A stretch of 64,000 nt of DNA from Micromonospora coxensis (GTDB lineage: Bacteria > Actinomycetota > Actinomycetes > Mycobacteriales > Micromonosporaceae), in assembly GCF_900090295.1 (NCBI RefSeq), contig NZ_LT607753.1, positions 1,984,001-2,048,000 on the forward strand. Direction: 5' to 3'. The translations under genes were made by a program, and so were the position numbers. Under the pieces are notes generated by a model, which saw nothing but the letters and a program-made list of their open reading frames with translations, was not told the origin of the DNA and searched no databases. Below are positions 21,614 through 28,624 of this stretch, one piece after another (the stretch's first letter is position 1; every line of letters starts with the position of its first letter).

Positions 21614-22711
21614 GTGGAGAGCGAGCTGCGCAGCATCGGCGAACTGGCCCGGGCCAGCGGCCTGACGATCAGTGCCCTGCGGTTCTACGACCGCACCGGG
21701 GTGCTCACCCCGGCGCGGGTCGATCCGGTGACCGGTTACCGCTGGTACACCGACGAGCAGGTGGACCCGGCCCGGCTGGTGGCCGGGCTGCGCCGGGTGG
21801 GCCTGCCGCTGGCCGAGATCGGTGTCGCGCTGCGGCACCGGCACGAGCCGGCGGTGGTCGGACGGCTGCTCGACGCGCACCTGCGCCGGCTGGAGGACGG
21901 CCTCACCGACGCCCGCCGTGAACTCTCCCGCGTCCGTGCCCTGCTCGCACCCGAGGAGACCCCGATGACCACCCGACTGTCCCTGTCCCGCGCCGACCTG
22001 GCCGCCGCCGTCGACGCCGTCCGCTTCGCCGTCGGCGCCGACCCGGACCTGCCGGTGCTGGCCGGCGTGCTGTTCGACGTCGAGCCGGACGGCGTACGCC
22101 TGGTCGCCACCGACCGGCACCGGCTGGCCGTGGCCCGGGCCGCCGGCACGGTCGACGGCCCGCCCGTGCGGGCGCTGCTGCCGGTCGACGCCGTGGACGA
22201 ACTGCGGGCCCTGCTCGACACCGGGCACGGGGTGACCCCGGAGGTGAGCGTGGCCCTGACCGCCGGCCGGGTCACCGCCTCGGTCGCCGGCCGCGAGATC
22301 ACCACCACCGCCCTGCCGTACGACTTCCCCGACTACCGCCGGCTGCTGCGCCGGGCGGCCGACGACGGGCCGACCCGACAGGTCCCGGTCGACGCGGCGG
22401 CGCTGCGCGCGGCGCTGCGCGACGCCGCCGCGCCCACCGTCACCCGGGAGCACGAGGGCGTGCCGCTGGCGGTCACCGTGCTCGGCGTCCGCGACGTCGA
22501 CGGGTTGCGCCTGGTCGGCGCGGACGAGCCGACCGGGGACGACCCCGACGAGTTGCGCGTCGGGGTCAACGGGGGTTACCTGCTCGACGCGCTGGACGCC
22601 GCCGGAGCGGCGCAGTTGGTGCTGGAACTGGACGGCCCGATCGCCCCGCTGGCGATCCGTCGCCCGGACGACGCGGACGCCTTCTCCATCCTGATGCCGA
22701 TCCGCCTCTGA
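21614..22711 (+). CDS. MerR regulator fused to a DNA sliding-clamp-like region
   Basis: The 365-aa protein has an N-terminal MerR winged helix (about 6-75: IGELARASGLTISALRFYDRTGVLTP and YRWYTDEQVDPARLV) and the usual dimerisation helix (about 88-112). The C-terminal part (about 122-365) looks like DNA polymerase III beta subunit (DnaN), with AVDAVRFAVGADPDLPVLAGVLF, LVATDRHRLAVARA and FPDYRRLL, ending in MPIRL like the end of DnaN (MPMRL). About 245 residues hold two of the three clamp domains. In the MerR family the C-terminal part senses a ligand; here the clamp-like fold may do so, or may contact clamp-binding proteins. The start is GTG 21614, probably leaderless. Confidence 0.88.
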   Translation: MESELRSIGELARASGLTISALRFYDRTGVLTPARVDPVTGYRWYTDEQVDPARLVAGLRRVGLPLAEIGVALRHRHEPAVVGRLLDAHLRRLEDGLTDARRELSRVRALLAPEETPMTTRLSLSRADLAAAVDAVRFAVGADPDLPVLAGVLFDVEPDGVRLVATDRHRLAVARAAGTVDGPPVRALLPVDAVDELRALLDTGHGVTPEVSVALTAGRVTASVAGREITTTALPYDFPDYRRLLRRAADDGPTRQVPVDAAALRAALRDAAAPTVTREHEGVPLAVTVLGVRDVDGLRLVGADEPTGDDPDELRVGVNGGYLLDALDAAGAAQLVLELDGPIAPLAIRRPDDADAFSILMPIRL

Positions 22712-24598: not shown

Positions 24599-24616
24599 GC
24601 CGCTGACCGGACGACG

Positions 24617-24649
24617 ACGGCGGGGATCGGGTGACCCGATCCCCGCCGT
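24617..24649. terminator. Bidirectional terminator hairpin
   Basis: A perfect 16-bp palindrome (24617-24632 with 24634-24649) lies between convergent serS and the TlpA-like gene. Confidence 0.85.
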
Positions 24650-24706
24650 CCGTGCGTCGTTGGAGCGAACAGCGGCGGCCGCGCGAACAGCGGCGACCGC
24701 GCGGAG

Positions 24707-25327
24707 TCAGCCGGCCAGTGCGGCGACCCGGCGGGTGAGGTCCTCGCCGTCGAGGAAACCCTGGTGGACCACCCTGCCGTCCCGGTCGATGATCAAGAAG
24801 GTGCTCTGCTCGACGATCTCGAAGCGGCGCCAGAGCGTGCCGGCCCGGTCGTCGAGCTGGAGCGTGCCGGCCAGTTCGAACTCGGTGACGAAGTCCTTCA
24901 TGGCCTTCTGCTCGCCGAGGCCGGCGACCCCGACGATCGGCACGGTGTCCCGGTACTTCGGCGCGATCTCGGCCACCGTCCACGCCTGACTGGCGCAGGT
25001 GGCGCACCAGGGCGCCCAGAACCACAGCACCACCGGCTTCCCGGCCAGTCCGGCGGCGGAGAACGGCGTACCGTCGAGGGTCTTCGCGTCGAACCGCAGC
25101 GTGTCCGGCACCTGCGCGGGGGCCGACGGGGCGCCGGTGGCCGGCCCGCCGGACGGCAGTGGCGAGGCGGTGCCGACCGGGACCACTGCCTCGGTGGCCG
25201 ACCGCGCCGGGTCGTCGCCGGCCGCGCACCCGGCGGCGGCGACCAGGACACCGGCCAGCACGGCGGCGGTGGCGACGAGCCGTCCGGGCGGCCGTCGGTC
25301 CGGGCGGTTCCTCCGGTACGACCGCAT
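24707..25327 (-). CDS. TlpA/ResA-like thioredoxin-fold lipoprotein
   Basis: The 206-aa protein has a basic start, a hydrophobic helix and a lipobox (VLVAAAGC), so it is anchored outside the cytoplasmic membrane. A linker rich in Pro and Ala follows, then a thioredoxin-like domain with KPVVLWFWAPWCATCASQAWTV; CATC is the redox-active disulfide, and VEQSTFLIIDRDG holds a Ser-Thr where the cis-Pro usually lies. It would reduce or oxidise thiols of exported proteins. It is the last gene of a three-gene minus-strand operon (22-bp gap to the flavoprotein gene), whose other members could feed it electrons. GAGAGGAG precedes the ATG. Confidence 0.9.
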   Translation of the reverse strand: MRSYRRNRPDRRPPGRLVATAAVLAGVLVAAAGCAAGDDPARSATEAVVPVGTASPLPSGGPATGAPSAPAQVPDTLRFDAKTLDGTPFSAAGLAGKPVVLWFWAPWCATCASQAWTVAEIAPKYRDTVPIVGVAGLGEQKAMKDFVTEFELAGTLQLDDRAGTLWRRFEIVEQSTFLIIDRDGRVVHQGFLDGEDLTRRVAALAG

Positions 25328-25349
25328 CGGCGTCTCCTCTCGGTACTGA

Positions 25350-26819
25350 CTACTTGTTGGCGTCGACGAGCCGCAACGCCAGCTCGGGGCAGACCTTGAC
25401 GGCCTTCATCGCGCCCTCCTTGAGCCAGGTCGGCACGGGCGTGGCGGGGAAGGCGGGGTATCCGTTGTGGTCGAGCCGGATGAAGTCGGGCACGACGTGC
25501 GCACAGAGCCCGTGTCCGTCGCAGCGGGACCAGTCCAGGGTCAGCTTCTGCGGGTTGGCGTCGGGCGCGCCGGGCAGGCTCATCACGCCCTTGACCCGCT
25601 TGCCGCACCCCTCACCGGTGGTGTGCAGGCGCAGGTCCTCGGCGAAGACCTCCATCGCGGACAGCGCGAACCGGGACGTACCGTCGGGGTGGCTGCACGC
25701 GCCACGGCCCTTGACGTCGCCGGCGGCGGCCCGGACGACCTCCACCGGCGCGCTGCCGGAGACCGCCAGGTCGACGGCGCGGGCCAGGTCCGGCAGGCCC
25801 CGTTTGCACGGCCCGCACTGGCCGGCGGACTCCCCGGCCAGGTAGCGGACCACCTGGGCGGCCTCGCCGAGCGGGCAGGTGTCGGTGCCGAGCGGGAGGA
25901 TGATGCCGGCGCCGAGCGTGCCGCCGACCCGGGTCAGGCTCCTGCGGGAGACCTCCGCCCGGTCCGCCGCCTCCGGGGTGATCCAGCGGCCGTGGTAGCC
26001 GCCCATCAGGATGCCCGGGCCCTCCGGCACCTCGCACAGGTCGAGGATCTCGCGCAGCGGGGTGCCCGCGGCGCACTCCACCACCGCGGGGCGCTTCGCC
26101 GCGCCGGTCACGGTGAGCAGCACGGTGCCGGGCTCGTCGTCGGTGCCGAGCGCCGCGTACTCGTACGGGCCGAGCCGGGCGGCGACGGCGAGTTGGGCGT
26201 ACGTCTCGGCGTTGGAGAGCAGCGTCGGCAGGTTCCGGACGCCGGAGTCGCTGGCACGCTTCTTGGTGCCGGGTGGGATGTGCGGCAGCCCGTTGATGCC
26301 GTTGACCAGCGCGCCGCCCTCACCGGAGATGAACCGGTGCGGCACGGTGACGATGCTGGTCTCGACGGGCATCCGGCGCTCGGCGAGGGCCTCGGTGAGC
26401 GACTCCCGCCCGATCAGGTCGTCGGCGACGCAGAGCACGATCTCCTCGGCGTCCAGCGCGTACGCGGCCAGCGCCGCGCCGTCGAGGATCAGGTGCGGCG
26501 CGCGGGTGAGCAGCACCTTGTCCTTCCAGCTCGCCGGCTCGCCCTCGCTGGCGTTGACCACCACCACGGCGGGCAGGTCCTGGCGCTCGCAGGACTCCAG
26601 CACCGCCTTGATCTTGCGGGCGAACGGGAAGCCGGCTCCGCCCTTGCCCTTGAGCTGGATGCTCTCGGCCAGCCGGAGCAGGTTGGCCGGTTCCATCGGG
26701 CCGATCGGTCCGTGCACCATCTCGTGCGCGACCAGGTCGAGCCGGCCGAACTCGGCGAACCCGGCGGTGAGCCGGGGCTCGCCGATGCAGGCCACCGGGG
26801 GAATCTTGGTCCGGTTCAC
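25350..26819 (-). CDS. NuoF-like NADH dehydrogenase flavoprotein fused to a ferredoxin
   Basis: The 489-aa soluble protein has an NuoF (complex I 51-kDa) core: the FMN loop GKGGAGFPFARK (about 58-69), an NADH-binding region with VNASEGEPAS, SLBB-like strands (about 235-300), and the iron-sulfur segment ESAGQCGPCKRG with a further Cys in GRGACSHPDG. In NuoF the first ligand sits in ESCG; here it is Ala, so cluster N3 has only three of four Cys in this stretch. The last 70 residues add a ferredoxin domain CDGHGLC...VKVCPE, whose spacing (C-x5-C) suggests a [3Fe-4S] cluster. The start GTG overlaps the stop of the membrane-protein gene. Confidence 0.9.
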   Translation of the reverse strand: MNRTKIPPVACIGEPRLTAGFAEFGRLDLVAHEMVHGPIGPMEPANLLRLAESIQLKGKGGAGFPFARKIKAVLESCERQDLPAVVVVNASEGEPASWKDKVLLTRAPHLILDGAALAAYALDAEEIVLCVADDLIGRESLTEALAERRMPVETSIVTVPHRFISGEGGALVNGINGLPHIPPGTKKRASDSGVRNLPTLLSNAETYAQLAVAARLGPYEYAALGTDDEPGTVLLTVTGAAKRPAVVECAAGTPLREILDLCEVPEGPGILMGGYHGRWITPEAADRAEVSRRSLTRVGGTLGAGIILPLGTDTCPLGEAAQVVRYLAGESAGQCGPCKRGLPDLARAVDLAVSGSAPVEVVRAAAGDVKGRGACSHPDGTSRFALSAMEVFAEDLRLHTTGEGCGKRVKGVMSLPGAPDANPQKLTLDWSRCDGHGLCAHVVPDFIRLDHNGYPAFPATPVPTWLKEGAMKAVKVCPELALRLVDANK

Positions 26820-28624
26820 TTGGCCTCACCCCGCAGCCCCGCCCAGTACGCCCCGTCCACCTCGGCCGCGCTGGCCCGGCGGCTCCGCCGGCCCCGGCCC
26901 TCGCTGGAGGACCGCATCGCCCGGCGGGAGGCCAGGTCGACCAGGGTGGGAGTGTCGTCGACGGGCAGGTCGTCCCCGGCGTAGCGGGCCGGCGGGCGCC
27001 AGTAGTCCGGCTGCTCCGGCACGTCGTCGTCGACGCTGTGCCGGCCGGCCCCGCTGCGCGGGGTCGCGGAGATCGGCTCGGCCGAGACCGGCGAGGTGGC
27101 CTCCCAGCGGCGGGGGCTGTCCCAGGGCTCCTCGGGCTCGTCGGTGCTCCGGCGGGGCGGTGACGAGTAGCGCGCGGCCAGGTCGTCGTCGTCGCGGCGG
27201 GCGCGCCGACCGGTGGAGGCCGGACGCTCGTCCTCGTCGTCGAGCCGGGCCCGGCGGCCGGTGGAGGCGGGACGCACGTCCTCGTCCTCCAACCGGGCCC
27301 GACGCCCGGTCGACACCGGACGCACGTCCTCGTCCTCCAACCGCGCCCGACGGCCCGTGGAGACCGGACGCACGTCCTCGTCCTCCAACCGCGCCCGACG
27401 GCCCGTGGAGACCGGACGCACGTCCTCGTCCTCCAACCGCGCCCGACGGCCCGTGGAGACCGGACGCACGTCCTCCTCGTAGCGGGACCGCCGGCCGCCG
27501 GAGACGGGGGCGACGTCCTCCTCGCCGCGGCGGCGGGCGGAGCGCTCCTCGTCCCGCCGACGCTCGACGCGCTCCGCCCGCGCGGCGGAGCGGCGGGCGG
27601 CCGGCTCCAGGTCGCGCTCCCGACGCCGCGGCTCCGGCTCCTCGACCTCGCGGCGGGACCGGCCGGCGCGGACCGGCTCGCGCAGGGTGCCCGGCTCGGG
27701 CACCACCGGCACGGTGAACCGGTCGGGGTCGCGTCGCCGGGCCGCGCCCGACTGGCCCCACGAACCGGTGGCGGTGGTCTCCGCCCAGCCGCTGCGGCCG
27801 TCCTCCTCCTCGCCCTTCCTGCGGCCGAGGCCGCCGAGCAGCGTGCGGGCCTTGCCGTCCTCGCTGCCCTTGCCGGTCATCGCGACGTTCAGCACGGCGG
27901 CCTGGTGCTGCTCCCGGCTGCGCCGGCCGAGGTACAGCGAGAACCGGACCAGCAGTGCGATCACCACGAGCACGACGCAGGCCAGGTAGCTCAGGGTCAC
28001 CCAGGACTTGGCGGCGCGGCCGGCGTTGAGGCCGTGGATCAGCGCGAAGGGCCAGGACACGTACGCCATCGAGTGCAGGGAGCGCCAGAACCACTTCGGG
28101 CCGACGCCGGCGAAGCGGACCCGGACGATGCCGGTCCACAGCACGCTGACCATGAGGAACGCGGCGACGGTGCCGAGGCCGACGTAGAGGCCGGAGCCGC
28201 CGATGAACGGCACCACGGCGTCGGTCGGGCCGGCCCGGCCGATCGAGATCTTGGTGATGACGTGGAAGACCAGGCCGGCGACGCCGAGGATGCCGGTGGC
28301 CCGGTGCGCGGACTGCAGCAGCACCCGGTGCGGGATCTGCAGCACGAGCCGGTCGGTGGCGAGCAGCCCCATCATGACGGTGAGGCTGAGCGAGACCAGG
28401 GCCACCACACCGGCGAAGAACTCCGTGAAGACGAAGCCGTACGCGTACATGGCGCCGCCGTTGCCGGACATCTCCACACCCGCCCACAGCAGGCCGAGCG
28501 CGGAGGCGGCCATCAGCGCCATCGCAGACTTCGACACGGTGCGGACACCACGGCTGCTGGTGGTGGTCCGGACGGTCGCCGCCTTCTGGTTCTGCTTTGC
28601 CCGGGCCATCTGCTCCTCGATCAT
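26816..28624 (-). CDS. Ferric-reductase-like bis-haem membrane protein with repeat tail
   Basis: The 602-aa protein has about six membrane helices in residues 30-230. Two helices each carry a His pair 13-14 residues apart: SAHRATGILGVAGLVFH and SLHSMAYVSWPFALIH. This is the bis-haem b pattern of the ferric reductase/NADPH oxidase family (FRD/NOX, YedZ/MsrQ). The protein lacks the FAD/NAD domain of FRD enzymes. Instead, a long cytoplasmic tail (about 245-602) is charged, Arg/Asp/Glu-rich, and holds seven 16-residue repeats of the type RPVSTGRRARLEDEDV. The downstream gene, translationally coupled, is an NADH flavoprotein, so the tail may be the docking arm. Start ATG 28624. Confidence 0.88.
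   Translation of the reverse strand: MIEEQMARAKQNQKAATVRTTTSSRGVRTVSKSAMALMAASALGLLWAGVEMSGNGGAMYAYGFVFTEFFAGVVALVSLSLTVMMGLLATDRLVLQIPHRVLLQSAHRATGILGVAGLVFHVITKISIGRAGPTDAVVPFIGGSGLYVGLGTVAAFLMVSVLWTGIVRVRFAGVGPKWFWRSLHSMAYVSWPFALIHGLNAGRAAKSWVTLSYLACVVLVVIALLVRFSLYLGRRSREQHQAAVLNVAMTGKGSEDGKARTLLGGLGRRKGEEEDGRSGWAETTATGSWGQSGAARRRDPDRFTVPVVPEPGTLREPVRAGRSRREVEEPEPRRRERDLEPAARRSAARAERVERRRDEERSARRRGEEDVAPVSGGRRSRYEEDVRPVSTGRRARLEDEDVRPVSTGRRARLEDEDVRPVSTGRRARLEDEDVRPVSTGRRARLEDEDVRPASTGRRARLDDEDERPASTGRRARRDDDDLAARYSSPPRRSTDEPEEPWDSPRRWEATSPVSAEPISATPRSGAGRHSVDDDVPEQPDYWRPPARYAGDDLPVDDTPTLVDLASRRAMRSSSEGRGRRSRRASAAEVDGAYWAGLRGEAK
27177..27512. repeat. 48-bp tandem repeat array within coding sequence
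   Basis: Seven in-frame units start at 27177, 27225, 27273, 27321, 27369, 27417 and 27465. The units at 27321, 27369 and 27417 are identical on reading, and outer units are progressively more degenerate. Each unit encodes 16 residues of the FRD-like protein tail. The identical central units point to recent expansion by slippage or unequal crossover. Confidence 0.9.

Follow-up and report, generated by a model that had tools for sequence, protein, structure and literature searches.

A conserved ferric-reductase-like and NuoF-ferredoxin gene pair and an adjoining lipoprotein gene that tracks CcdA in Micromonospora

A window of 64,000 nucleotides from Micromonospora coxensis (contig NZ_LT607753.1, positions 1,984,001 to 2,048,000) carries three consecutive genes coding for an FRD (ferric-reductase/NOX-type) membrane protein, a NuoF-like flavoprotein fused to a ferredoxin, and TlpA1, a thioredoxin-fold lipoprotein (Table 1). 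A first-pass annotation had read them as a single relay, conveying electrons from reduced nicotinamide adenine dinucleotide (NADH) through flavin mononucleotide (FMN), iron-sulfur clusters and haems to thiols outside the membrane. We favour, with a probability of about 0.64, two units lying side by side, namely an NADH-fed unit made of the FRD and NuoF-ferredoxin proteins (the haem pair) and a separate lipoprotein linked with CcdA. The presence of the lipoprotein tracks CcdA much more closely than it tracks the haem pair, and the three-gene relay was rejected as the main reading on the strength of a comparison of 101 Micromonospora genomes and of a NuoF tree. What remains of the relay is its first part: the pair is supported as one genuine conserved unit and a path from NADH via FMN and iron-sulfur clusters to b haems is plausible from sequence, while the final step from haem to TlpA thiols is poorly supported.

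Conservation and composition of the haem pair

The three genes overlap or nearly touch, as had been noted, with 4 nucleotides shared by the FRD and NuoF-ferredoxin genes and a spacing of 22 nucleotides between the latter and tlpA. In a family scan of 61 genomes, where a full-length NuoF-ferredoxin was defined by an expect value (E) below 1e-190, 28 loci were found in 27 genomes, with an FRD match upstream in all 28 (27 of these loci were read). Among the 101 Micromonospora genomes both genes were present in 85 and both absent from 12, the four discordant cases being drafts of 80 to 800 contigs. A collection scan, from which the best 80 named loci of at least 563 relatives were considered, placed an FRD gene at 79 of the 80 NuoF-ferredoxin loci, and the remaining one stops at a contig end; the closest named match among those listed there is M. 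halophytica (L127). Of 296 genomes scanned across the phylum, 12 matched at E 1e-90 or better, including six of the eight listed genomes of one genus with large genomes, inferred to be Streptomyces, and in the six loci read from that genus the pair adjoins a LeuS-like gene and no constant third gene was seen. The pair also recurs in Actinomadura, Dactylosporangium and Sphaerisporangium. The co-occurrence expected for all three genes was found for the first two, and failed for the third outside some lineages. For SCO2572/SCO2573, put forward here as a guess from synteny, nothing was found in the open-licence literature.

Table 1. Features of the locus, in window coordinates
Feature	Position	Strand	Description
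FRD membrane protein gene	26816-28624	-	602-residue open reading frame; ferric-reductase/NOX-type, two His pairs
48-bp tandem repeat, 6.2 copies	27182-27480	-	within the tail-coding part of FRD; encodes DEDVRPVSTGRRARLE-like units
NuoF-like FMN/NADH protein gene, fused to Fer4_15 ferredoxin	25350-26819	-	489-residue open reading frame
tlpA (TlpA1)	24707-25327	-	206-residue open reading frame; DsbF/MPT53-like thioredoxin-fold lipoprotein
Gap from tlpA stop to serS stop, 108 bp	24599-24706		usual ccdA site, without ccdA in the window

The membrane protein was predicted from sequence to be a ferric-reductase/NOX/STEAP-like protein holding two b haems. The histidine pairs on which the bis-haem assignment had been based were confirmed as H107/H121 (14 residues apart) and H184/H197 (13 apart). 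All 31 sequences of alignment A3 share these four residues, and in the structure model, which has six long helices, they lie in the third (residues 97-127) and fifth (177-200). The best structural matches of this model were SpNOX, STEAP2/4/1, cytochrome b6f, b561 and NOX5. In NOX enzymes the flavin adenine dinucleotide (FAD)/NADPH domain is on the same chain as the membrane part, whereas here the electron input would be on the separate NuoF-ferredoxin chain. The core spans approximately residues 1-252 and is followed by a long charged C-terminal tail that carries the repeat-encoded DEDVRPVSTGRRARLE-like units. The true start may be five codons downstream of the annotated one, at Met6 (ATG at 28609), which is kept in all 14 sequences of alignment A2. 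Although most of the searched genomes of Micromonospora have the pair, as do several further groups of actinomycetes, its membrane half in the window has no family match in Pfam or NCBIfam. The ferric reductase family PF01794 (cut-off 28 bits) did not match it either, and three of the 14 A2 members matched weakly (E up to 1, best 4e-4); sub-threshold scores of 18.1 and 17.7 bits were recorded at L036 and L223. A search of solved-structure sequences with the FRD profile returned a sole match (E 0.14), an unrelated phosphatase, which was discarded.

The reading of the second gene as an NADH-type flavoprotein joined to a ferredoxin was borne out by Pfam, with PF01512 at 95.6 bits (cut-off 31.2), PF10589 at 48.5 bits (cut-off 23.5) and a C-terminal Fer4_15 ferredoxin (PF13459), bearing a Cx2Hx2C pattern, also above cut-off. 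The NCBIfam NuoF equivalog TIGR01959 was missed (145.2 versus 558.65 bits). Among solved sequences, the NuoF part is closest to Complex I NuoF, HydB and the beta subunits of NAD-dependent formate dehydrogenases, from which the window protein differs by the extra ferredoxin and by its N3 site. The four-Cys ligand set of this site (CxxCxxC...C) is incomplete, since Ala332 replaces the first N3-type Cys, and an N3-like site with three Cys is unusual. At this position the two solved relatives displayed carry Cys, and the 27 loci collected without using the motif carry Ala (26) or Ser (1); in alignment A4 the Ala partly reflects how the sequences were chosen, SAGQCGPC being one of the two patterns of the collection scan.

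Linkage of the lipoprotein with CcdA

TlpA1 is, as first described, an exported CATC thioredoxin-like lipoprotein, judging from AhpC-TSA (45 bits) and Redoxin matches above cut-off and, on visual inspection, a WCATC motif and a lipobox-like AAAGC. Among proteins of solved structure, DsbF (3ios, E 6e-32) and DsbE/MPT53 (1lu4) of M. tuberculosis are its nearest relatives. These carry QP, with a proline that we take to be the cis-Pro, where all seven aligned members of the TlpA1 family have QS (EQST), so that TlpA1 has Ser at their cis-Pro position. In a study of the M. tuberculosis proteins, both are reported as oxidants folding hirudin, and Rv2874 (DsbD) or Rv2877c is proposed as their membrane partner (PMC3853704).

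The lipoprotein gene adjoins the haem pair in seven of the 27 family loci, in 57 of the 63 loci from Micromonospora (damaged in two of the 57) and in 41 of the best 80 named loci. All of these 41 are from Micromonospora/Verrucosispora or from Actinoplanes and related genera, and each of the two groups also has loci without it; beside the pair in the other 39 named loci no lipoprotein match was found, two of them having under 500 bases downstream. The position after tlpA is occupied in 44 of the 63 Micromonospora loci, by ccdA in 42 and by a partial ccdA in two, the latter being loci without TlpA. Among the best 80 named loci ccdA follows in 30, one of which lacks TlpA.

Across the 101 genomes the matches to TlpA and CcdA agree in 100 (88 with both, 12 with neither), and the exception is a partial CcdA gene; that is, a CcdA match accompanies all 88 TlpA matches, compared with one of the 13 genomes without TlpA. 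On the contrary, TlpA and the haem pair are weakly linked (both in 80 genomes, TlpA alone in 8, the pair alone in 9, neither in 4; p 0.05). TlpA and CcdA matches occur without the haem pair in eight genomes, one of them (G082) a draft of 990 contigs with a piece of CcdA1, and the pair occurs without a match to either in another eight. Of the 79 genomes with an operon TlpA, 18 have no local ccdA, and every one of these 18 has a second CcdA (CcdA2), which is found in only two of the 61 with a local CcdA. The Fisher p values are without correction for kinship. A pair test on the NuoF tree (63 loci), where the local CcdA needs 10 changes, is corrected for it: in a mean of 5.6 of the six independent pairs CcdA1 and CcdA2 went in opposite directions, with a median p of 0.03. 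A few entries behind these genome counts are soft, three genomes (G110, G070 and G128) being cut by contig ends and two (G109 and G113) having a damaged operon TlpA.

In the window ccdA is not next to tlpA. The same genome holds a second TlpA-CcdA pair at C1:5277784-5279230 (L234), and both CcdA proteins score just below the PF02683 cut-off. The local ccdA was probably lost here, with TlpA1 probably served by the second CcdA that the genome encodes. Two genomes weigh against such a rule, unless assembly errors are involved: in G108 and G098 TlpA1 is retained, whereas CcdA2 is absent and CcdA1 is scattered over frames. The CcdA match of G139 contains an insertion but keeps to a single frame. 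At L079 the ccdA1 gene occupies three reading frames and at L236 two, each time beside a TlpA1 that reads on; either these genes are broken or the assemblies are in error. L067 (in G109), which is the closest relative of the window, lacks a local ccdA and has a damaged tlpA whose pieces lie in two frames. The TlpA-CcdA pattern offers a worked example of an apparent neighbour in an operon pathway that actually follows another partner.

Proposed electron path and possible acceptors

In the two-unit arrangement that we favour, unit 1 would be an NADH dehydrogenase module on the cytoplasmic side, docked on a conduit of b haems through the membrane. The structure of the genes, their conservation and their patterns of co-occurrence and loss are observed, and each electron-transfer step is one that we infer. 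NADH would pass a hydride to FMN, as suggested by the NuoF fold and motifs; FMN would release single electrons via the N3-like cluster and the fused ferredoxin, given the Cys/His pattern; and from the ferredoxin these might reach the inner and then the outer haem, held by the four invariant histidines, before being handed to an acceptor outside the membrane that probably depends on the lineage. Unit 2, which has unit 1 as its neighbour in Micromonospora as well as in Actinoplanes and related genera, would be the DsbF/MPT53-like lipoprotein exchanging thiols with CcdA.

As to the acceptor of unit 1, we consider tentatively, and compatibly with the two-unit arrangement, an exported protein encoded beside the pair (DUF4142, DUF305, Rieske lipoprotein, Lipoprotein_15 or TlpA) or elsewhere, in the way of MsrQ-like and NapH-like modules; for TlpA such a supply would add to that of CcdA. 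Of the 131 loci searched, 20 have a DUF4142 gene next to the pair or next to a lone FRD gene, 17 times downstream of NuoF, and 14 of the 20 are in Actinomadura, whereas DUF305, Rieske lipoprotein and Lipoprotein_15 occur at one locus each and may be chance neighbours. These cases hint that the pair feeds exported proteins varying by lineage, but the six loci of probable Streptomyces have no constant third gene. The DUF4142 proteins (L205:7518-8213 and 19 other loci) have conserved Glu and His residues (LWE, QH, AAHG, HM), and our guess is that they are ferritin-like metal proteins; nothing on DUF4142 together with a ferric reductase was found in the open-licence literature. An FRD paralogue at L055:5174-6888 follows a DUF4142 gene, and no adjacent NuoF was found.

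Just as tentatively, we consider that electrons go to no dedicated protein but to oxygen (with NOX-like superoxide production), ferric iron or a quinone. The NOX and STEAP enzymes among the best structural matches, and the many loci without a constant exported partner, are in accordance with this; the window neighbours, an amylase gene, serS and a YkuD protein gene, include neither iron nor respiratory genes.

A broader proposal, which we regard as improbable, is that the pair serves actinomycetes generally as an NADH-fed port for electrons across the membrane, independent of flavinylation, that its partner on the outside changes with the lineage (DUF4142, DUF305, Rieske lipoprotein, TlpA) and that in Micromonospora it could reduce the adjacent TlpA by haem-to-disulfide transfer in parallel to CcdA.

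Very unlikely, finally, is a direct reduction of TlpA by the haem pair in place of a lost CcdA, with NADH feeding extracytoplasmic thiols: the tight spacing in a single operon, a TlpA1 intact in 14 of the 15 loci without adjacent ccdA, the two genomes with only a frame-broken CcdA1 and the exported proteins recurring beside the pair in other lineages speak for it, but the second CcdA in all 18 genomes without a local one, the eight genomes with TlpA and CcdA and no haem pair, and the 39 named loci without a TlpA match beside the pair speak against it. To our knowledge, a haem-to-disulfide transfer would be unusual.

The window pair is related to MsrQ-like/NuoF clusters linked with ApbE, which entered the literature in 2021. 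In that study (PMC8238504, eLife 2021), the ApbE-flavinylated MsrQ-like clusters are defined by nearby ApbE or FMN-binding genes, are broad in Actinobacteria and have an FRD protein with two predicted haem sites and a PF10589 NuoF-like electron input, a NuoF-like protein being present in 31 gene clusters among 1797 MsrQ-like ones. An FRD protein with two predicted haem sites and a NuoF-like partner is common to these clusters, as described there, and to the window class, which differs from them by the absence of ApbE and by the ferredoxin fused onto NuoF. With one ApbE query (tblastn, E 1e-4, within the flanks covered) none of the 107 class 1 loci (the window, L019-L044 and L127-L206) gave a match, whereas the same query found ApbE at L045-L053 (nine of nine), L058, L226 and L230, and not at L054-L057 or L227-L229. 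The ApbE-bearing loci are more distant and have a compact FRD, with ApbE immediately upstream of it. At L046, L050, L058 and L228 we confirmed a Fer4_15 stretch that lies outside NuoF. Loci of class 2 (ApbE-FRD-NuoF-ferredoxin) fit the MsrQ-like clusters with NuoF, as PMC8238504 describes them. If the proposed path is correct, the window class would export electrons from NADH without the ApbE/FMN route so far described for clusters of this kind.

A flavinylated acceptor adjoining the pair was looked for by FMN_bind and ApbE searches and was not found. No FMN_bind (PF04205) match lay near a class 1 pair in the 61-genome scan, which missed one gene of the window's genome; the zero obtained for that genome is a miss, because an FMN_bind-like gene just below the Pfam cut-off (21.2 of 22 bits) is present in it. 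This gene lies between an FRD-FAD-NAD gene and ApbE in a separate cluster approximately 90 kb off (L233:6240-9025; G000:C1 about 1919-1922 kb).

Genomic setting

The host genome, a single contig of 6.77 Mb, belongs to the genus Micromonospora going by its relatives. The operon is flanked on the opposite strand by an alpha-amylase gene upstream and by serS downstream, and the YkuD protein gene is also near. The first-pass annotation had likened the locus to MsrPQ and DsbD, which deliver reductant across the membrane to outside proteins, DsbD operating via cysteines and not haem. Unlike those systems, the window has neither msrP nor dsbD among these neighbours; for msrP a genome-wide search was not made. 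A fusion of a MerR regulator with a DNA polymerase III beta-clamp-like region was detected at window positions 21614-22711 (PF13411 and PF02767 above cut-off), and relatives of this fusion lie within about 4.5 kb of the haem pair in seven of the 27 family loci.
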